Part shown: positions 54,287 through 64,000 of the stretch, piece by piece
Layout: every line of letters begins with the position of its first letter
How positions within the stretch are numbered: position 1 is the stretch's first letter
Assembly: GCF_009720625.1 (NCBI RefSeq)
Contig: NZ_CP046266.1
Span: 441,501-505,500 of the forward strand
Direction of reading: 5' to 3'
Length of the DNA stretch: 64,000 nt
From: Metabacillus sediminilitoris
Lineage (GTDB): Bacteria; Bacillota; Bacilli; Bacillales; Bacillaceae
Notes under the pieces: model-generated
What the model saw: only the letters and a program-made list of their open reading frames with translations
What the model was told of the DNA's origin: nothing
Databases searched by the model: none
Program-made: the position numbers and the translations under genes

Positions 54287-54472
54287 ATAATCACCTTTAG
54301 TTTTTATTAGACTACCTGTATAAAAGTTATAGTACACGATTTCTTTTCTTGATACAAACATAGAAAAATCAAGGGTTTTTTTGATTGCAATATTTGAACT
54401 CATAGTATATGATATTGTCTGTGTGAAATCAAAGTCTAAAAAATGAACTGTTTGTATAGAGGAGGAATAACA
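54287..54472. promoter_or_regulatory. Divergent promoter region tetR/efflux gene
   Basis: 186 bp shared by the two divergent genes, where the TetR operator should lie. I could not pick out one convincing long palindrome by eye; AT-rich short dyads are present near 54330 and 54405. Confidence 0.4.
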
Positions 54473-55999
54473 GTGAATCATTCCATAAATACGTTTGAAC
54501 GCCCCCCTTACGGAATACTTTCTATTTTAATGATCGGGGCTTTTATTGCGTTTTTAAATAGTACATTACTTAACATCGCTCTTCCGTCTATTATGGTGGA
54601 TTTGGATATAGATACATCGACCGTTCAATGGTTGACGACAGGTTATTTGTTGGTGAATGGTATTTTAATTCCAACGACAGCTTTCTTAATTCAAAAATTT
54701 TCTGTTCGCCATCTATTCTTAACTGCCATGGGATTATTTACAGCCGGTACATTAATTGCTGGTGTTGCCCATGTCTTTCCTATCTTATTAACTGCACGGA
54801 TGGTTCAAGCTGCTGGATCAGCAATCTTAATGCCATTATTAATGAATGTAATGTTAGTAAGCTTTCCAGTGGAAAAAAGAGGAGCGGCGATGGGTGTCTT
54901 CGGTTTAATCTTAATGTCTGCACCTGCGATTGGACCGACATTATCAGGATGGATCGTGGAACATTATGATTGGAGAATGCTTTTCCATTTTATAACGCCA
55001 ATTGCTATTGTGGTTCTATTGATCGGCTTTTTCTTGCTTAAGGATAAAAAAGAGAACGTTAGTATCAGTCTTGATCTCTTCTCACTTCTCCTATCAAGCT
55101 TAGGCTTTGGAGGATTGCTCTATGGTTTTAGTTCAGCAGGCAGTAGGGGCTGGGATAGTCCTCATGTGTATGCAACGATTATCATAGGGATTATTTCTTT
55201 AGTTTGGTTTATTTTACGTCAAGGAAAACTTGACAATCCAATGCTTAATTTCAATGTTTTTAAATACCCAATGTTTTCTCTATCATCATCTATCACGATT
55301 ATCGTTAATATGGCTCTGTTTTCCGGATTTTTACTATTGCCTATTTATGTTCAAACAATTCGCGGTATTTCCCCGCTAGATGCGGGGTTAATGCTGTTGC
55401 CAGGGGCGGTCTTGATGTCAGTCATGTCACCTATTACAGGGAGATTATTTGATAAGTTTGGCGGCCGTATATTAGCGATTGTTGGTTTATCGATTACAGC
55501 TATAGCGACGTATTTATTCAGTAACTTAACTTTAGATACTTCTTACCAATACCTAATGATTGTACATGCGATTCGTATGTTTGGAATGTCGATGGTGATG
55601 ATGCCTGTTTCAACAAATGGTTTAAATCAATTGCCAAAGCAATTCTATCCGCATGGTACTGCTATGAACAATACATTAAACCAGGTATCTGGCGCTATTG
55701 GAACAGCATTGTTAGTAACGGTGATGTCAAACCATACAGAAACAATTGCAAAGCAATTAACAGAAGATGCGATGAAAAATGCAAGTGGACAGCCGACAGA
55801 AGCAGCACTGGCTGAAATGCAACAACAGATTGGTATGAATGCTATGTTAGAAGGAATTAATTATTCGTTCTTTGTATCAACCTTTATTGCTGTCGCAGCA
55901 CTTATTCTAGCGTTCTTTATTAAACGAGCAAAACAAGAAGATACTATAGAGGGAAATCCTTCAGGGAAACCGGCAGTATCTAAATTAGCTGAGAATTAA
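54473..55999 (+). CDS. DHA2 family MFS efflux pump (14 segments, LmrB/EmrB-like)
   Basis: A 508-residue exporter with 14 membrane segments. NSTLLNIALPSIMVDL at segment 1, RMVQAAGSAILMPL at segment 4 and the segment-5 motif GLILMSAPAIGPTLSGWIVE are DHA2 signatures. It expels drugs or other hydrophobic compounds by proton antiport. GTG start with AGAGGAGG eight bases upstream. Divergent tetR gene; terminator at 56030. Confidence 0.93.
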   Translation: MNHSINTFERPPYGILSILMIGAFIAFLNSTLLNIALPSIMVDLDIDTSTVQWLTTGYLLVNGILIPTTAFLIQKFSVRHLFLTAMGLFTAGTLIAGVAHVFPILLTARMVQAAGSAILMPLLMNVMLVSFPVEKRGAAMGVFGLILMSAPAIGPTLSGWIVEHYDWRMLFHFITPIAIVVLLIGFFLLKDKKENVSISLDLFSLLLSSLGFGGLLYGFSSAGSRGWDSPHVYATIIIGIISLVWFILRQGKLDNPMLNFNVFKYPMFSLSSSITIIVNMALFSGFLLLPIYVQTIRGISPLDAGLMLLPGAVLMSVMSPITGRLFDKFGGRILAIVGLSITAIATYLFSNLTLDTSYQYLMIVHAIRMFGMSMVMMPVSTNGLNQLPKQFYPHGTAMNNTLNQVSGAIGTALLVTVMSNHTETIAKQLTEDAMKNASGQPTEAALAEMQQQIGMNAMLEGINYSFFVSTFIAVAALILAFFIKRAKQEDTIEGNPSGKPAVSKLAEN

Positions 56000-56029
56000 G
56001 TTTTCAGGAATATAGTATAAATATAGTAT

Positions 56030-56067
56030 AAAAAGACAACTTCCAATTTTGGAGGTTGTCTTTTTTG
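56030..56067 (+). terminator. Terminator after the DHA2 gene
   Basis: AAAGACAAC.TCC pairs with GGA.GTTGTCTTT, then a T run. Confidence 0.88.
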
Positions 56068-56146
56068 ATATAAGGAAACTAAGTTATGCTCCTCCTAGTA
56101 TTCATGTTGGATGTAAATGAATTGTAAATAGAGATTTACAAATGAT

Positions 56147-56221
56147 TTGGACAAGCAATATGTTTGCTTAATATTTGTTTAGTATATTCAGAGTGTCAAA
56201 CAAATATAAAACAAACATATT
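56147..56221 (+). promoter_or_regulatory. Promoter with 65-bp nested palindrome, candidate DeoR-family operator
   Basis: TTGGAC, 16 bases, TAATAT gives a promoter. Over it lies a symmetric array: AATATGTTTG (56157-56166), ATATTTGTTT (56171-56180), AAACAAATAT (56198-56207), CAAACATATT (56212-56221). The outer and inner arms are each perfect inverted repeats, centred at 56189. TGTTT/AAACA half-sites are typical of DeoR/GlpR-type regulators, and such a regulator is encoded in the operon that starts here. Confidence 0.75.
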
Positions 56222-56237
56222 TAGGAGGAAACAAACA

Positions 56238-57347
56238 ATGTCTTGGAATCATAATTGGAAAAAAGGAATTATTGGTATTATGACAGTTTCTATGTTAGCG
56301 GCATGTTCATCAAATGATACATCAAATGAACCTAGTTCAAGCGAAGGAACTGATTATAACAAGCTGACATTAGCTGAAATAGAAGAGAAAGCAAAAACAG
56401 AAGGGGAAGTAAATTCAGTTGGAATGCCTGATACTTGGGCAAACTGGGTGGAAACTTGGAACGAGCTTGGTGAAAAATATCAATTAAAACATACTGATAC
56501 AGATATGTCTAGTGCAGAGGAATTACAAAAATTTGCTGCAGAAAAAGAAGACGCAACAGCGGACATTGGTGATGTTGGGATTGCCTTCGGACCAATTGCT
56601 GAGGACCAAGACTTGACACTAGCATATAAAACTTCATACTGGGATGAAATTCCAAATTGGGCAAAGGATGATAATGGAGACTGGGTTGTTGGTTATACAG
56701 GTTCGATGGCAGTAATGACTGATAAGAATAATGTTAAAAATGCACCAACTTCTTGGGCAGATATTAAGAATGGCGATTTCACAGTAAGTATTGGTGATGC
56801 ATTAACAGCAAACCAAGCCCAATTCGCTATCTTAGCAGCTGCCTATGCATTCGGTGGAGATGAGAACAATATACAACCTGGTATCGATTTCTTTGCGGAA
56901 TTAGCAAAGAAAGGTAGATTAACATCGATTGATCCAAGTGTTGCAAACTTAGAAAAAGGTGAAGTTGATGTCGCATTAATGTGGGACTTTAATGCATTAG
57001 GCTATCGTGAACAAATTGATGCAAAGCGATTTGATGTGACGATTCCAAAAGAGGCATCTGTCACTTCAGGTTATGCAACAATTATTAACAAATATTCTAA
57101 AAACCCGCATGCTGCGATGTTGACTCGTGAATACATTCTTTCGGATGAAGGTCAAGAAAATTTAGCAAAAGGCTATGCACGCCCAATTCGTGAAAATGTT
57201 GAATTATCAGAAGATGTAGAATCACTTCTATTACCAGATGAAATGTATGAAAATGCAAAACCAGTGGCTGATCAAAAGGCTTGGGAAGAAACAACAAAAA
57301 ACATTCCGCAAATTTGGCAAGAACAGGTATTGATCCATGTTAAATAA
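56238..57347 (+). CDS. ABC transporter solute-binding lipoprotein
   Basis: A 369-residue binding protein anchored by lipidation: signal peptide ending in the lipobox LAAC (C23). After an S/E/N-rich linker, the two-lobe domain shows GEVNSVGMPDTWANWVETWN and features such as TGSMAVMTDKNNVKNAPTSW, as in the AfuA/FbpA/PotD-type binding proteins that serve iron, polyamine, hexose-phosphate or aminoethylphosphonate importers. The ligand cannot be read from sequence; the neighbours suggest a phosphorylated compound. ATG at 56238 has AGGAGG ahead; last codons overlap the next gene. Confidence 0.88.
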   Translation: MSWNHNWKKGIIGIMTVSMLAACSSNDTSNEPSSSEGTDYNKLTLAEIEEKAKTEGEVNSVGMPDTWANWVETWNELGEKYQLKHTDTDMSSAEELQKFAAEKEDATADIGDVGIAFGPIAEDQDLTLAYKTSYWDEIPNWAKDDNGDWVVGYTGSMAVMTDKNNVKNAPTSWADIKNGDFTVSIGDALTANQAQFAILAAAYAFGGDENNIQPGIDFFAELAKKGRLTSIDPSVANLEKGEVDVALMWDFNALGYREQIDAKRFDVTIPKEASVTSGYATIINKYSKNPHAAMLTREYILSDEGQENLAKGYARPIRENVELSEDVESLLLPDEMYENAKPVADQKAWEETTKNIPQIWQEQVLIHVK

Positions 57348-58179
57348 TCGATTAATTATGATTGTTGTGGATGCGCTTCGTTATGATACAGCGTGTTCAC
57401 ATATGGGGTTTATGCAACATCTTGTTGAACATGGCAAAGTTGCACGTTATGAAGTGAAATCAGAGGTTCCTTCATTATCAAGACCTCTCTATGAAACGAT
57501 CTTAACCGGAACGCCGCCAATCCTCCATGGAATTGTAGGCAATGGTGTTGTTCGCTTATCAACACAGGAAAGCATATTTCATTTAGCTAGACGCAGCGGG
57601 AAAGTAACTGCTGCAGCTGCTTATTATTGGGTAAGTGAGCTCTATAATCATGCACCGTTTCGACATGGGATCGATCGTATTCAATTGGACAAGCACGCAC
57701 CTATTGAGAATGGCCTGTTTTATTTTGAAGATCATTATCCTGATAGTCATTTATTTGCAGAAGCTGAGTGGCTTGTTTCAGAGAAAGAACCTGATTTTCT
57801 CTATATTCATCCGATGAATGTCGATGATGATGGACATAAATTTACAGCAGATTCTGTTCAATATCGAAATCGAGTTTTAGCAACAGATGCATTACTGGCT
57901 CTTACATTACCTAAATGGATGGAGCTTGGATATGACATTATTGTGACAGCGGATCATGGGATGACGTCTGATGGAAACCATGGTGGCAATACGGCTAGTG
58001 ATCGCCATGTACCGTTATTTATTGCTTCAAATAAAGTAAAACCAGTTGTGCAAGAGCAGTTGATTTCTCAGCTTCAAGTAGCGCCGTTAGCCTGTCATTT
58101 ACTTGGAATTGATCCCTCAGAAGCGATGGTCCCGCTCACCATACCTGGACTAGTTGAATATAGTAAAACTCATTTCTAG
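57337..58179 (+). CDS. AlkP-superfamily phosphoesterase (NPP type), cytoplasmic
   Basis: A 280-residue two-metal hydrolase of the alkaline-phosphatase superfamily, nucleotide pyrophosphatase/phosphodiesterase branch. Metal and catalytic residues: D12 (VVDALRYD), probable nucleophile S48 in PSLSRPLYETILTG, the NVDDDGH cluster (D163-H167), TADHGM (D206-H207) and RHVP (H224). There is no signal peptide, so it should act inside the cell, presumably on what the ABC transporter brings in. Its start overlaps the binding-protein gene by 11 bp. Substrate could be a phosphodiester, phosphomonoester or phosphonate; unknown. Confidence 0.88.
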   Translation: MLNNRLIMIVVDALRYDTACSHMGFMQHLVEHGKVARYEVKSEVPSLSRPLYETILTGTPPILHGIVGNGVVRLSTQESIFHLARRSGKVTAAAAYYWVSELYNHAPFRHGIDRIQLDKHAPIENGLFYFEDHYPDSHLFAEAEWLVSEKEPDFLYIHPMNVDDDGHKFTADSVQYRNRVLATDALLALTLPKWMELGYDIIVTADHGMTSDGNHGGNTASDRHVPLFIASNKVKPVVQEQLISQLQVAPLACHLLGIDPSEAMVPLTIPGLVEYSKTHF

Positions 58180-58203
58180 AATAATCGTTTAAAAGAGAAC
58201 ATT

Positions 58204-58323
58204 AGAAAAACTTGGCTTATCGCCAAGCCCTAATGGCGAAAGCCTTAGTTTTTCTCATACTATCAACATTAAAATATAAATTCTGATAGTATAACAAAAG
58301 CAATCGGTGAAAAGCCGATTGCT
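58204..58323 (+). other. Three successive hairpins inside the operon
   Basis: In the only sizeable gap of the operon: AGAAAAACT..GGC/GCC..AGTTTTTCT with inner TCGCCA/TGGCGA (58204-58252); ACTATCA/TGATAGT (58259-58293); and AGCAATCGG/CCGATTGCT (58300-58323). None is followed by a T run. They may set mRNA processing and stability between the first two and the later genes. Confidence 0.6.
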
Positions 58324-58407
58324 CCCCTATTAAAATATCATTTCCAGATTTGAGAGCTGTTCTAATTAAAGCTTTAAATCTTTTACAAATTTCAAAAGGG
58401 AGACTGC

Positions 58408-59247
58408 ATGATGAATGGAAATAAACGTGTGTTTTTAATAATAGTTCCGTTCGCTTTGTTGATGACATTCTTTTTCCTAGTACCACTTATCTATATGCTG
58501 GTTAGTAGTTTTTCAAATAGTGAGGGTATTACATTTGAACATTATCAAGAAGTGTTAACAAACTCATATATTTTGCAAGGATTTAAGAATAGTTTAGTTC
58601 TTTCCTTTGTGTCAGCATTGATTGCATTAATCGCTTCCTTGCTGGGTGTTTATGCAATGACATCCTTTTCCGAAAAAGTACGTGAAAGATTATTGGTCCT
58701 TTCAAATTTAACATCTAATTTTTCAGGCGTTCCACTTGCTTTTGCATTTATCGTTTTACTTGGTAATAGCGGACTTTTTACATTAGCAATGGAAAAATTC
58801 GGCTGGGATTTATCTTTTTCCCTTTATAGTTGGTCAGGTCTTTTGCTTATTTATATTTATTTTCAACTTCCGCTCGCAGTCATGCTATTATATCCAATTT
58901 ATTTTGGGATACAGATGCAATGGAAAGAGGCTGCAGCGTTACTTGGCGCTTCTACATTTATGTTTTGGAAAAAAATCGGACTGCCGATTATATTTCCTGG
59001 TGTTATCGGGACATTTACGATCTTGTTCGCAAATGCATTTGGTGCCTATGCATCTGCATATGCATTAACCGGCAGCAATTATAATCTAGCAGCAATTCGT
59101 ATTGGGGCGCTTATTCAAGGAGATATTTTTGCACAACCTGAACTTGCTAGTGCGATTGCCGTATTACTTGGAGTTATTATGATTGTCGGAATGCTGCTTA
59201 ACGAATGGCTTATTAAGAAAACAAGAAAGGACTTGTCAGGACGATGA
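58408..59247 (+). CDS. ABC transporter permease, first subunit
   Basis: A 279-residue inner-membrane permease with six segments and the EAA loop EAAALLGASTFMFWKKIGLP (about residues 173-192) that docks the ATPase. The type (FbpB/PotB/PhnU-like) agrees with the binding protein and ATPase of the operon. AAAGGGAG precedes ATG 58408/58411. The stop overlaps the next permease start by 4 bp. Confidence 0.92.
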   Translation: MMNGNKRVFLIIVPFALLMTFFFLVPLIYMLVSSFSNSEGITFEHYQEVLTNSYILQGFKNSLVLSFVSALIALIASLLGVYAMTSFSEKVRERLLVLSNLTSNFSGVPLAFAFIVLLGNSGLFTLAMEKFGWDLSFSLYSWSGLLLIYIYFQLPLAVMLLYPIYFGIQMQWKEAAALLGASTFMFWKKIGLPIIFPGVIGTFTILFANAFGAYASAYALTGSNYNLAAIRIGALIQGDIFAQPELASAIAVLLGVIMIVGMLLNEWLIKKTRKDLSGR

Positions 59248-60023
59248 AAAAATTGACAATCGTTATGCTTATTCTGATTGGAATTTATTTAACCTTGCCA
59301 ATAGTAGCGACTGCGCTATATGCATTTTCTACAGAATGGAATAAAACAGTTTTACCTGAGGGATTAACTGTTGAGTGGTTGACAGCTTTATTTCAAGATT
59401 CACGTTTTATCGAAGCATTTGGTCGTTCTATTCTTCTTTCAGGTGGAGCAGTTTTGATCTCAATTTTGTTTATTGTACCGGCGATTTTCGTTATCGTTTT
59501 ATACTACCCATCATTGGAAAAGTGGTTTCAAGCAAGTGTTGTAATGGTGTATGCCTTTCCTGGTGTTATTTTAGCAGTCGGGTTAATCCGTTTTTATTCA
59601 GGAACAAGCTTGCCGATGATTATCGCTGTTATCGGAGTATACGTCATTAGTGTTCTTCCCTATATGTATCAAGGAACAAGAAATAGCTTACGAAACATTC
59701 AAGGACGACAGTTAATGGATGCAGCTGAGTTATTAGGTGCCACAAAAGTAGAAGCTTTCCGAAGAGTGTTGCTGCCATCTGTTTATCCAGGATTATTTGT
59801 TTCGGTGTTATTATCTTTCTCTATTTTATTTGGTGAATTTGTTTTGATTAATCTTGTTGTTGGTTCCCGCTTTGAAACCGTTCAAATCTATTTAATGGAA
59901 AAATTGAGCACAAGTGGTCATCTTGCTAGTGCGATTGTGTTTGTTTACATTGTGTTGATGGGGATTTTAACGATCGTAATGGCGGCATTAACGAAAAAAG
60001 CGAAAGGAATGACAAGTGCATGA
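59244..60023 (+). CDS. ABC transporter permease, second subunit
   Basis: A 259-residue permease with six segments and the EAA loop DAAELLGATKVEAFRRVLLP (about residues 159-178). It forms the pore together with the upstream permease. 4-bp overlaps with both neighbours show strong translational coupling. Confidence 0.92.
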   Translation: MKKLTIVMLILIGIYLTLPIVATALYAFSTEWNKTVLPEGLTVEWLTALFQDSRFIEAFGRSILLSGGAVLISILFIVPAIFVIVLYYPSLEKWFQASVVMVYAFPGVILAVGLIRFYSGTSLPMIIAVIGVYVISVLPYMYQGTRNSLRNIQGRQLMDAAELLGATKVEAFRRVLLPSVYPGLFVSVLLSFSILFGEFVLINLVVGSRFETVQIYLMEKLSTSGHLASAIVFVYIVLMGILTIVMAALTKKAKGMTSA

Positions 60024-61024
60024 GTGATGTAGTATTAAAAAACGTTGTGAAACGATACAAAGATACAGATGTTCTTTCAGGAATCGATATGACAATAAAA
60101 GACGGTGAATTTGTTACGTTATTAGGACCAAGTGGCTGTGGAAAGAGCACAATTTTGCGTATTTTATCTGGTTTGACAGATTTAACAACAGGTGAAGTCT
60201 TAATTGATGGCAAAAACATGAAAAATGTTGCACCAAAAAATCGGAAAGTTGGAATGGTGTTCCAATCGTATGCGTTATTTCCGAATATGAGTGTATTTGA
60301 AAATGTAGCTTTCGGTTTAAAAATGTTGAAAAAACCTGCTAATGAAGTGGCAATTGAAGTTGATAAAATGCTAAAGCTTGTTGGATTAGAAGAGAAGAAG
60401 CATGCATATCCACATGAGCTTTCTGGTGGTCAACAGCAACGGGTTGCGTTAGCTCGTTCTCTCGTTGTACGCCCTAACGTATTGTTGCTTGATGAGCCAT
60501 TAAGTGCCCTTGATGCACAAATTCGTAAACATCTTCAAGTTGAACTTCGTGAAATTCAACGTGAATTGAAGATGACGATGATCCTTGTTACACATGACCA
60601 AGAAGAAGCTATGACGGTTTCAGATCGTATTTTCGTTATGAATAATGGCAAAATTGCACAAGAAGGTACACCGGCTGAAATATATACAAAACCTAATACA
60701 GAGTTTGTTGCTAATTTTATTGGTCATTATAATGTTTTTTCAAAAGAACAATTAGCAAAATTAGTCGGGAATCAATTACAAGTGTCTGCAGATAAATATG
60801 CGATTCGCCCAGAGTCAATTCATTTTGACATTCACCCTTCCTCATACCAATTACGTGCTGTTGCAGGTGATTCAATCATGAATGGAAATGTCATCCGAAC
60901 TGTTTTTCATACAGATGACAAACAATTTACAACAGAGCAATTACATCATCGTGCATTCTCCTTTGAGAAAGGATTGGAATATAATTTATTCGTAGAACCA
61001 GAGGATGTCATCGCTTTATCATGA
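60020..61024 (+). CDS. ABC transporter ATP-binding protein (PotA/FbpC/UgpC type)
   Basis: A 334-residue ATPase. Walker A GPSGCGKST (about residues 37-45), Q-loop VFQSYALFP, signature LSGGQQQRVALARSL, Walker B LLLDEPLSALD and H-loop VTHDQEEAMT are all intact. The C-terminal part (about 235-334) forms a TOBE-like regulatory domain, shorter than usual. It drives import by the two permeases. 4-bp overlaps on both sides. Confidence 0.94.
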   Translation: MSDVVLKNVVKRYKDTDVLSGIDMTIKDGEFVTLLGPSGCGKSTILRILSGLTDLTTGEVLIDGKNMKNVAPKNRKVGMVFQSYALFPNMSVFENVAFGLKMLKKPANEVAIEVDKMLKLVGLEEKKHAYPHELSGGQQQRVALARSLVVRPNVLLLDEPLSALDAQIRKHLQVELREIQRELKMTMILVTHDQEEAMTVSDRIFVMNNGKIAQEGTPAEIYTKPNTEFVANFIGHYNVFSKEQLAKLVGNQLQVSADKYAIRPESIHFDIHPSSYQLRAVAGDSIMNGNVIRTVFHTDDKQFTTEQLHHRAFSFEKGLEYNLFVEPEDVIALS

Positions 61025-61797
61025 GCCAACTCAAGGAAGAACGTCATCGGTTAATTATTCAATGGGTAAATGAGGAGAAACGTGTATCAGTTGCAAAAAT
61101 GGCAAAGAAGTTTTCGGTGACACCTGAAACAATTCGACGAGATTTAACAGAGTTGGAAGAACAAGAAAAGATCTCTAGGGTTCATGGCGGAGCAACCTTA
61201 TATTCAAAATTAGAAAAAGAGCAGGCATACTTGCGGAAGCTGGATATTAATCGAAAAGAAAAGCAGCAAATAGCGATTGAAGCAGTCACACGTATCAATC
61301 ATGGTGATACAATCGCTGTCGATGTTGGGACGACGACGGTTCATCTAGCCGATTACATCCAAGATATTCAAAACCTAACCGTTGTAACCAATTCAATTGC
61401 TGCAGCAGATCGTTTTAATCTAGCAATTGAAGAGAAAAGGATGACTGGAAAGGTTATCTTGTTAGGAGGCTTTACAAATCCTGCCCAATCCTCGGTTTCC
61501 GGTGCAATGACCCTTGAATGGTTAAATCACATGTATATGGATAAAGCATTTATATCCTGCGGGGGAATTGTTGCAGAGTCAATCTATGATTATGATTTAG
61601 ATGAATCACTTGTTTCAGCGAAAATGATGGCAAGAAGCAAGTATAATATATTACTTGCTGATTCATCAAAAGTAGGTATTCCATCTTTTTATTCCTTTGG
61701 AGAGGCAAGACATTTTAACGAAGTTATAAGTGATAAGCCTTGTCCAAAGGAATGGAATGAATGGTATAAACGATGGACGATAGCGAAGGGGAGTTAA
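61021..61797 (+). CDS. DeoR/GlpR family transcription regulator
   Basis: A 258-residue regulator. The N-terminal helix-turn-helix has the family pattern VSVAKMAKKFSVTPETIRRD (about residues 21-40) followed by RVHGGA. The C-terminal sensor domain has GDTIAVDVGTTTVHLADYI and LADSSKVG, which in relatives bind a sugar phosphate or other phosphorylated effector. It probably controls this operon through the palindrome at 56157. Overlaps the ATPase gene by 4 bp. Confidence 0.93.
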   Translation: MSQLKEERHRLIIQWVNEEKRVSVAKMAKKFSVTPETIRRDLTELEEQEKISRVHGGATLYSKLEKEQAYLRKLDINRKEKQQIAIEAVTRINHGDTIAVDVGTTTVHLADYIQDIQNLTVVTNSIAAADRFNLAIEEKRMTGKVILLGGFTNPAQSSVSGAMTLEWLNHMYMDKAFISCGGIVAESIYDYDLDESLVSAKMMARSKYNILLADSSKVGIPSFYSFGEARHFNEVISDKPCPKEWNEWYKRWTIAKGS

Positions 61798-61801
61798 TCA
61801 A

Positions 61802-62806
61802 ATGTTAATTGATTATCATGTACATCTAGAGGAAGGTCCGTATTCGTTTAACTGGCTTGAACGTACGGCAAAAGCACTCGGATATTTTGAAACAAATGAA
61901 GAATTAGAAAAAGGGTCAAGGGAAAAAGTCGAATATCAAGTAAATCAGCTGCAAAAAAGGCTTTCTTCTGGTTGTTACAGCGAAGAGTGGCTTGATTTAT
62001 ATTTGAAGAAAGCTAAGCAAATTGGCTTGAAAGAGGTCGGGATCGTCGATCATTTATACCGTTTTAAAGAAACTCAACATTATTTTGAAAAAGCGTTAAT
62101 TCTTGATCCTGCAGATCCAATTGGTGAATTGCAATCATATTGGTTAAAGAATGTCATGACAGAAAGAATGGATCGATTTGTTGAAGCGATTTTAGCTGCA
62201 AAAAAACGTTGGGAAAAACAAGGTGTATTATTAAAGTTAGGAATTGAAGCTGATTATTTTATAGGACAAGAGCAAGAACTTGAAGGACTATTAGCAGGAA
62301 AACCATGGGACTATGTTATTGGTTCTGTTCATTATGTTGACGGCTGGGGATTTGATAATCCGCAAACAGCATCTCGGTTTGCAAAAAGTAATTTAGAAGA
62401 GCTTTATACTCGTTTTTATGTGACGGTTGAACATATGATTCGTTCAAATATGTTTGATTTTGTCGCGCATTTAGATAATTTAAAAGTGTTTAATTACAAA
62501 GTGAACAATGAAACATTTAATCGTAAATGGTATGAGCGCATAGCTGATGCATTAGTTGAAACAAATACGGCAACAGAAGTGAACGCAGGTTTATTTTATC
62601 GTTATCCTGTCAAAGAAATGTGTCCATCTGCTGATTTTTTATCGATAATCGTAAGGAATGGTGTGCCAATTACCCTATCATCTGATTCGCACTATCCCGA
62701 TGATCTTGGCAAATATGTAAGAGAAAACAAGAAGTTTTTGCAGGAATTAGGTGTTTCACATATAGCAACTTTTCAACAAAGAGAAAGGATTTTAAAACAG
62801 ATCTAA
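61802..62806 (+). CDS. PHP-domain phosphoesterase
   Basis: A 334-residue metal-dependent hydrolase of the PHP (polymerase and histidinol phosphatase) family. Metal ligands: H6 and H8 (DYHVH), the VDH motif near residue 82, glutamate in GIEADYF, histidine in GSVHYVDG, FDFVAHLD, and SSDSHYPDD near the end. Longer than HisK-type histidinol phosphatases and outside a his operon, so another phosphoester is likely. It is the last gene of the operon, four bases after the regulator gene, and could complete the hydrolysis begun by the AlkP-type enzyme. Confidence 0.9.
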   Translation: MLIDYHVHLEEGPYSFNWLERTAKALGYFETNEELEKGSREKVEYQVNQLQKRLSSGCYSEEWLDLYLKKAKQIGLKEVGIVDHLYRFKETQHYFEKALILDPADPIGELQSYWLKNVMTERMDRFVEAILAAKKRWEKQGVLLKLGIEADYFIGQEQELEGLLAGKPWDYVIGSVHYVDGWGFDNPQTASRFAKSNLEELYTRFYVTVEHMIRSNMFDFVAHLDNLKVFNYKVNNETFNRKWYERIADALVETNTATEVNAGLFYRYPVKEMCPSADFLSIIVRNGVPITLSSDSHYPDDLGKYVRENKKFLQELGVSHIATFQQRERILKQI

Positions 62807-62826
62807 TAGTCGGGATCTGTTTTTTT
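62794..62826 (+). terminator. Operon terminator
   Basis: AAAACAGATC/GATCTGTTTT with a 10-base loop and a T run; the PHP stop codon lies in the loop. Confidence 0.88.
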
Positions 62827-62997
62827 ATCATTCAGCAAATTAAGCGCACTAATTCTATATAATAATGTAGGAATATTCATCCAGAGCTATTTAAAGCAAT
62901 CATTGTGTGTATGTTGTCCCTAAATGTGTGCTCACCGCAACATTTTACGTTTAAAAAGTAAAGTGGAAAGGGAAAATAAGCAAGTGGAGGGATAAAG

Positions 62998-64000
62998 ATG
63001 AAGATTATTATTATTGGCGGAGATGCAGCGGGAATGAGTGCTGCCATGCAAATTGTAAGGAATAGCTCAGAACATCAGATAACTGTTCTTGAAATGGGAG
63101 AAGTATACTCATATGGTCAATGTGGACTCCCTTATGTGATTAGTAATAAAATTGATTCAACAGATAAATTAATTGCTCGGACACAATTTGAATTTAAAGA
63201 AAAATACGGAATTGATGCACGAATCTTACATGAAGTTCGTCAAGTTGACACAAGAAATAAACAAGTGAATGGAATCAACCATGCAAATGGTGAAAAGTTC
63301 AACTTATCTTATGACAGACTCCTTATCGCAACTGGAGTAAGTCCAGTAATACCTGAGTGGGACGGTGCGCAACTTTCAGGTGTTTTCACTTTAAAGACAA
63401 TTCCAGATGCAAAGCAAATCATGGAATCCCTTCAAGGCAATGTAAAAAATGTTACAGTTATTGGCGGCGGTTATATTGGCCTTGAAATGGCTGAGAGTTT
63501 TGTGGAATTGGGTAAGAAGGTAACAATCATTGAACGAAATGAACAATTAGCAAAAATATTCGATGCAGAGATGGCAGAACTTATCCATGAAGAAGCAAAA
63601 AATCATAACATTGTTCTTAGAATGGGAGAATCTGTAGAAGCGTTTCTCGGTAAAAAACATATTGAATATGTTAAGACTGATAAAGGTGAGATTGAGACAG
63701 ATCTTGTACTAATCGCAATTGGCGTGCGGCCTAATACATCCTTTTTAGATAAGACTGGAATTATGACAAGTGTTAATGGTGCAATCCAGGTAAATGCGTA
63801 TATGCAAACTAATATTGAAGATATTTATGCAGCAGGTGATTGTGCCACGCAATATCATCGAATCAAAGAAAAGGATGACCATATTGCACTAGGAACACAT
63901 GCAAATAAGCAAGGGCAAATCGCAGGACTAAACATGATCAATATTCCAAAAACCTTTAAGGGTGTAGTAGGATCTTCAATTATAAAATTTTTCCGTTTAT
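62998..64000 (+). CDS. cdr: CoA-disulfide reductase-like pyridine nucleotide-disulfide oxidoreductase (cut by window edge)
   Basis: The first 334 residues of an FAD enzyme that uses NAD(P)H to reduce CoA disulfide or polysulfide. FAD site IIIIGGDAAGMSAAMQIV at the start, the single active cysteine C42 in YSYGQCGLPY (not a CxxxxC pair, as in CoA-disulfide reductases), an NAD(P)H site TVIGGGYIGLEMAE, and the second FAD motif IYAAGDCAT. CoA disulfide reductase versus NADH oxidase cannot be settled without the C-terminus, which lies beyond 64000. GGAGG precedes the ATG. Confidence 0.88.
   Translation, partial: MKIIIIGGDAAGMSAAMQIVRNSSEHQITVLEMGEVYSYGQCGLPYVISNKIDSTDKLIARTQFEFKEKYGIDARILHEVRQVDTRNKQVNGINHANGEKFNLSYDRLLIATGVSPVIPEWDGAQLSGVFTLKTIPDAKQIMESLQGNVKNVTVIGGGYIGLEMAESFVELGKKVTIIERNEQLAKIFDAEMAELIHEEAKNHNIVLRMGESVEAFLGKKHIEYVKTDKGEIETDLVLIAIGVRPNTSFLDKTGIMTSVNGAIQVNAYMQTNIEDIYAAGDCATQYHRIKEKDDHIALGTHANKQGQIAGLNMINIPKTFKGVVGSSIIKFFRL

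Follow-up and report, generated by a model that had tools for sequence, protein, structure and literature searches.

A conserved gene set linking an ABC importer to two phosphoesterases in Metabacillus sediminilitoris, and its possible role in organophosphate scavenging

The UgpBAEC system, together with a glycerophosphodiesterase, imports an intact organophosphate that is then cleaved in the cytoplasm. Here we describe a seven-gene set from Metabacillus sediminilitoris that pairs an ABC importer with two phosphoesterases, found in a 64,000-nucleotide (nt) stretch of contig NZ_CP046266.1 (positions 441,501 to 505,500), hereafter the window, whose own numbering is used throughout. The route that we propose for it resembles the Ugp system in that a whole organophosphate would enter and be cleaved in the cytoplasm. 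The set differs in the family of its solute-binding protein (SBP), in having a putative diesterase of NPP type and not GlpQ/UgpQ, and in carrying its own putative monoesterase. PhnSTUV-PhnWX belongs to the same broad class of ABC importer with phosphate-freeing cytoplasmic enzymes, and versions of our set in Pseudomonas and Aeromonas have a PhnR-like regulator; however, no subunit of the set reaches the Phn cut-offs, the transaminase and phosphonatase are absent, and the hydrolases are instead of the AlkP and PHP (or HAD) types. For the sugar-phosphate importer AfuABC we know of no such pair of AlkP and PHP enzymes.

A further likeness is to the Cj0727-Cj0733 region of Campylobacter jejuni, where an SBP of known structure (5t1p) is 53% identical to the window SBP. 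We presume that 5t1p is Cj0727 and that the SBP of the Pseudomonas version (locus L094) is PA3250. The preliminary description of the window knew of no characterised pathway with exactly this set. Our searches of an open-access library likewise gave no description of the set, and the C. jejuni relatives, assuming that the SBP is the same, appear in print as uncharacterised, phosphate-regulated genes. There Cj0727-Cj0732 is an operon with 'no currently assigned function' (PMC7176700), the Cj0727-Cj0733 region is phosphate-regulated (PMC2292242, PMC1892558), and Cj0732 rises strongly alongside PhoX in chicken juice (PMC11202532). In Pseudomonas, PA3250 belongs to 36 exoproteome proteins of phosphate-starved cells (PMC4899797). 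According to PMC10574752 phnA lies outside Pho control, unlike what is suggested for the set described here.

The seven-gene set and its conservation

Open reading frames and profile matches place all seven genes on the forward strand, spanning 56238-62806. The set opens with a solute-binding lipoprotein of the SBP_bac_6 family (369 amino acids, 56238-57347) and the AlkP-superfamily enzyme (280 amino acids, 57337-58179), followed by ABC permeases A (58408-59247) and B (59244-60023), the ATPase (60020-61024, with PhnT2 and PotA as its nearest models), a DeoR/GlpR-type regulator (61021-61797) and a PHP-domain phosphoesterase (334 amino acids, 61802-62806). The coordinates and domain matches bear out the direction and gene types first assigned. 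Overlaps of 4 base pairs (bp), said to occur at most joints, are found at only three of the six; in order, the joints are an 11-bp overlap (SBP/AlkP), a 228-nt gap (AlkP/permease A), the three 4-bp overlaps and a 4-nt gap (DeoR/PHP). The host genome is a single contig of 5.60 Mb, and the closest named relatives of the proteins come from Peribacillus and related Bacillaceae.

The operon is real and is a conserved system. Co-occurrence in other genomes had been set beforehand as the test that could refute the proposal, and the outcome was clearly favourable. One scan of named genomes with AlkP gave 148 relatives, of which the best 80 were kept, and genes within 7 kb of AlkP were counted as members of a locus. 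The SBP, both permeases and the ATPase are kept in 77 of these 80 loci, DeoR in 75 and a PHP of the NF005235 type in 70, and all seven genes are present in 68. Three gene orders occur among the complete loci: SBP-AlkP-...-PHP (60), AlkP after DeoR (5) and AlkP first (3). The importer is missing in three loci (L073, L077 and L085), with AlkP and PHP remaining in L077. Across an even sample of 150 genomes of the order, AlkP and SBP were found in the same 11, and full-length PHP matches in 12, ten of them AlkP carriers. Among 398 genomes sampled from the class Bacilli, AlkP and SBP each occurred in 49 and together in 47 (Fisher p 4e-56, uncorrected for relatedness); in all 47, judged by eye, the two lie on one contig about 6 kb or less apart. 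PHP was present in 41 genomes of this class sample, 31 of these with AlkP.

Occurrence is patchy within the genus (1 of 21 genomes) and the family (4 of 80), and therefore suggests gain and loss of the set. Among 72,556 plasmid records, 179 from Enterococcus match the SBP and 179 match AlkP. The one that was opened (NZ_CP012461, L091 7915-13469) has the order PHP-SBP-AlkP-permease-permease-ATPase, with PHP divergent. The core is also present in Pseudomonas and Aeromonas records, and a search of phages for AlkP gave no match.

The seven genes look like one unit, separate from the preceding MFS gene, because probable terminators stand on both sides. A forward-strand hairpin with a T run lies 3' of the MFS gene at about 56034-56066 (seen by eye, and absent from the hairpin scan list), and the hairpin scan recovered the closing terminator noted earlier as an 11-pair, terminator-like hairpin with a T tail on the same strand at 62794-62823. 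The upstream neighbour (54443-55999) encodes an EmrB-type MFS efflux protein, and the downstream one (62998-63999), by reading, is an FAD/NAD-dependent reductase-like gene. The stretch between AlkP and permease A (58180-58407, forward strand) contains several strong hairpins (z -7.3), with z of -2 or below in 19 of 33 relatives that have a true gap of at least 60 nt; it may give the first two genes levels different from those of the permeases. We set aside a repeated element here: the best hairpin has no second copy within the window, and the length of the gap differs among relatives, so we treat it as local. Rfam gave no match above the gathering score in 55990-63050, and one weak, chance-like mir-190 match below it.

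Two phosphoesterase positions filled by different enzymes

The AlkP enzyme matches PF01663 above its cut-off and has the NPP fold, which places it in the NPP branch of the superfamily. Its catalytic motif is intact, with D12, S48, N69, D163, H167, D206, H207 and H215 invariant in the alignments; which of these are metal ligands we take from NPP. By inspection the protein begins at the first strand of the fold and has no signal peptide, in agreement with the cytoplasmic location given in the preliminary description. It shares fold and catalytic residues with ENPP6/ENPP7 and the Xanthomonas NPP, but is a cytoplasmic, minimal core with serine at the nucleophile position, as assigned by alignment. 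On a Labrenzia plasmid (L095 7260-9843) TmpA and TmpB are directly followed by a distant AlkP enzyme. With 34% identity and neither R49 nor the EDHYPD feature of the family in this enzyme, the link to TmpA/TmpB is only a lead.

The PHP enzyme matches the NF005235 family (490.5 bits, cut-off 442), and its motif is equally intact: H6, H8, D83, H84, E149, H177, H223, D295 and H297 are invariant in 32 sequences. Against the HisJ histidinol-phosphatase model NF005996 it scores 48.2 bits, below the cut-off of 133. We rejected histidine biosynthesis as its main role because the host genome has a separate HisJ elsewhere (381 bits, NF005996), although PHP relatives do sit in histidine operons. The label 'histidinol phosphatase' says little about the substrate, since the name is common across the PHP family.

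Both hydrolase positions are filled by unrelated phosphoesterases in other lineages. The second position in the 77 core loci holds a PHP of the NF005235 type in 69, another PHP in four (L068, L069, L075 and L087) and no recognised PHP in four. The L068 protein is of the HisJ type (315.7 bits, cut-off 133), that of L087 matches NF004086 below cut-off (253.7 against 321), and the Enterococcus plasmid PHP lies just above the cut-off of NF005597 (303.8 against 303). In a PHP tree of 32 rows, 22 of them chosen cassette PHPs, three HisJ-type rows group with the host genome's HisJ (100/99) and L087 groups with another PHP of the host genome (98/95). The clade of cassette PHPs (100/100) excludes all of these; according to the program, long branches make some placements unsure. 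The same position is taken by a HAD-IB phosphatase in Pseudomonas (L094) and Aeromonas (L092), and elsewhere by a HisJ-type PHP (L107), a HAD-IA (L113) or a Cof-type HAD (L100). Two genomes (G418 and G568) with the SBP and no AlkP match carry a calcineurin-like phosphoesterase gene (PF00149, 62.5 and 52.1 bits; L103 7345-8190 and L104 5402-6217) near the importer; it stands 168 nt ahead of the SBP gene in one case and some 700 nt beyond the ATPase gene in the other. The proposal of two-step hydrolysis draws its strongest argument from this linkage of unrelated phosphoesterases to a single importer.

Upstream repeats and regulation

The regulator has both HTH_DeoR and DeoRC domains (PF08220 65 bits, PF00455 139 bits) and so is of the DeoR/GlpR type. 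A 44% identical paralogue in the host genome is divergent to what by reading is a likely secreted-phosphoesterase gene (L101 5098-7542). To score PhoP boxes upstream of the SBP we added up the values of four TT[ATC]A[CT]A hexamers spaced at 11 bp (maximum 24), a pattern that we take to be the PhoP consensus. The mean score over 78 SBP upstream sequences was 19.7, compared with 17.1 for shuffles and 16.5 for 552 control upstream regions, and at other spacings (8-14) the SBP-upstream mean was 17.2-17.8. A score of at least 20 was reached by 53 of the 78 sequences, against 1.4% of shuffles and 2.4% of controls. Three Brevibacillus loci score the full 24, and the host genome's own pstS scores 23.

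The window has an inverted triplet, TGTAAA-N5-TGTAAA-N5-TTTACA (56112-56140), a possible PhoP site. All eight nearest relatives (L009-L016) share it with the window at a fixed distance of 127-132 nt from the SBP start, and it occurs nowhere else in the window or in 1,702,902 bases of loci. Closer to the SBP gene, at 56173-56218, the repeats ATTTGTTT...AAACAAAT...AAACAAACA form a possible DeoR operator; a DeoR-type element, AAACAAA, is found within 90 nt upstream of the SBP in 60 of 78 sequences, compared with 9 of the 552 controls.

A proposed route and its alternatives

We consider it probable that the seven genes form one transcription unit that scavenges phosphorus from an intact organophosphate by import, a cut by AlkP and dephosphorylation by PHP. 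The lipoprotein would capture the organophosphate outside the cell, and the two permeases and ATPase would bring the molecule in whole. The cytoplasmic NPP-type enzyme would then cut one ester bond to leave a small phosphomonoester, from which the PHP enzyme would free phosphate. Control is probably double, with PhoP responding to phosphate shortage and DeoR to the presence of substrate or product. The genes, their conservation as a set, the intact catalytic motifs and the interchange of both hydrolases are seen directly; whole-molecule import, the order of the two cuts and Pho control in this organism we infer. Of the idea as first put forward, that AlkP acts and then PHP, the two steps gain from the exchange of hydrolases and from the Pho-type repeats upstream in relatives. 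Against them, two genomes (G310 and G378) have the AlkP set with no second hydrolase in the stretch examined.

Several other observations weigh against this route. The PHP is not exclusive to the gene set, because members of its family also stand at the end of histidine operons in L098 (6816-7817) and L099 (6327-7328) and near one in L109, and a PHP relative adjoins an aminoethylphosphonate operon in L110 (6359-12285; phnS2, phnU2 and phosphonatase genes). It is unrecognised in four core loci (L047, L066, L067 and L074), and in the class sample AlkP is absent from 10 of 41 PHP carriers, as is this PHP from 18 of 49 AlkP carriers. Proteins that bind citrate, iron or sugars are among the closest structural neighbours of the SBP. 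The window's own PhoP-box score is 19, a level that 9.8% of shuffles and 7.4% of the control regions reach; its inverted triplet was found by eye first and the pattern drawn from the same sequences afterwards. The upstream motif counts are not independent, because the sequences are related, and a search of the open-access library gave no paper for the PhoP consensus.

It is also possible, though unlikely, that an aminoethylphosphonate-like compound or ester is imported and that AlkP acts on the phosphonate, at the ester or the C-P bond, in the manner of PhnA with phosphonoacetate. The model scores argue otherwise: AlkP reaches 29.5 bits against the phosphonoacetate hydrolase (PhnA) model TIGR02335 (cut-off 407.55), the SBP 28.5-35.6 against PhnS models (310-395), and the permeases 65.7 and 63.7 (593 and 359) and the ATPase 375 (458) against aminoethylphosphonate-importer models. 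PhnW/PhnX lie near the set in only 1 of 80 loci, and we rejected Phn genes as regular neighbours on this count. The Labrenzia enzyme is without the family features, and C-P cleavage to phosphate would leave a phosphomonoesterase no work. An AfuA-like ligand, namely a phosphodiester of the sugar-phosphate or nucleotide-like kind on which AlkP and PHP would act, seems improbable to us: AfuA-type uptake of a simple sugar phosphate would need no diesterase, and the neighbourhood clusters contain no recurring sugar kinase or isomerase. Import of a non-phosphorylated ligand such as polyamine, iron or citrate, with the hydrolases acting otherwise in the operon, would fit the 'spermidine/putrescine' names of SBP relatives in databases and the MctA, FbpA and PotD folds among its neighbours. 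We regard it as very improbable, given the tight linkage of the importer to two phosphoesterase positions that elsewhere hold unrelated enzymes, and the Pho-type repeats upstream in relatives.

Within the organophosphate route, the SBP fold leaves the ligand undecided, because its neighbours in the VIA-align comparison bind phosphorylated solutes, metal-citrate, iron, sugars and polyamines. A much weaker guess is that the substrate is a glycerophosphodiester of an amino-alcohol of the ethanolamine or choline type. Towards such an ester point PhnR-like regulators in the Pseudomonas and Aeromonas versions, whose HAD scores highest with a histidinol-phosphatase model, the occurrence of the PHP family in histidine operons and beside the aminoethylphosphonate operon of L110, a glycerol kinase next to AlkP in L108, PhnW and PhnX before L053, and the Labrenzia plasmid on which a distant AlkP follows TmpA and TmpB. 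Sugar-type ABC genes lie near the set in six loci, and in one of these, L107, they are Ugp-like, a further lead in this direction. Each of the leads is either an isolated case or a weak match, and the PhnR, histidinol-phosphatase and Ugp-type matches all fall below their cut-offs, which again counts against the proposal. It is only tentatively that we picture a widespread, undescribed and Pho-controlled pathway that would import glycerophospho-amino-alcohols, which are the water-soluble head portions of phospholipids, in intact form and cut them twice inside the cell with interchangeable hydrolases, a Labrenzia side branch feeding a phosphonate analogue to TmpA/TmpB.

The replacement of both hydrolases by unrelated enzymes leads to the prediction of a diester entering and a monoester in between. 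If the proposed route is true, many Bacilli hold a phosphorus route outside textbook phosphate regulation, and the recurrence of the set in many soil bacteria points to a mode of phosphorus nutrition that has had little study, in which whole molecules containing phosphate would be used when free phosphate is scarce.

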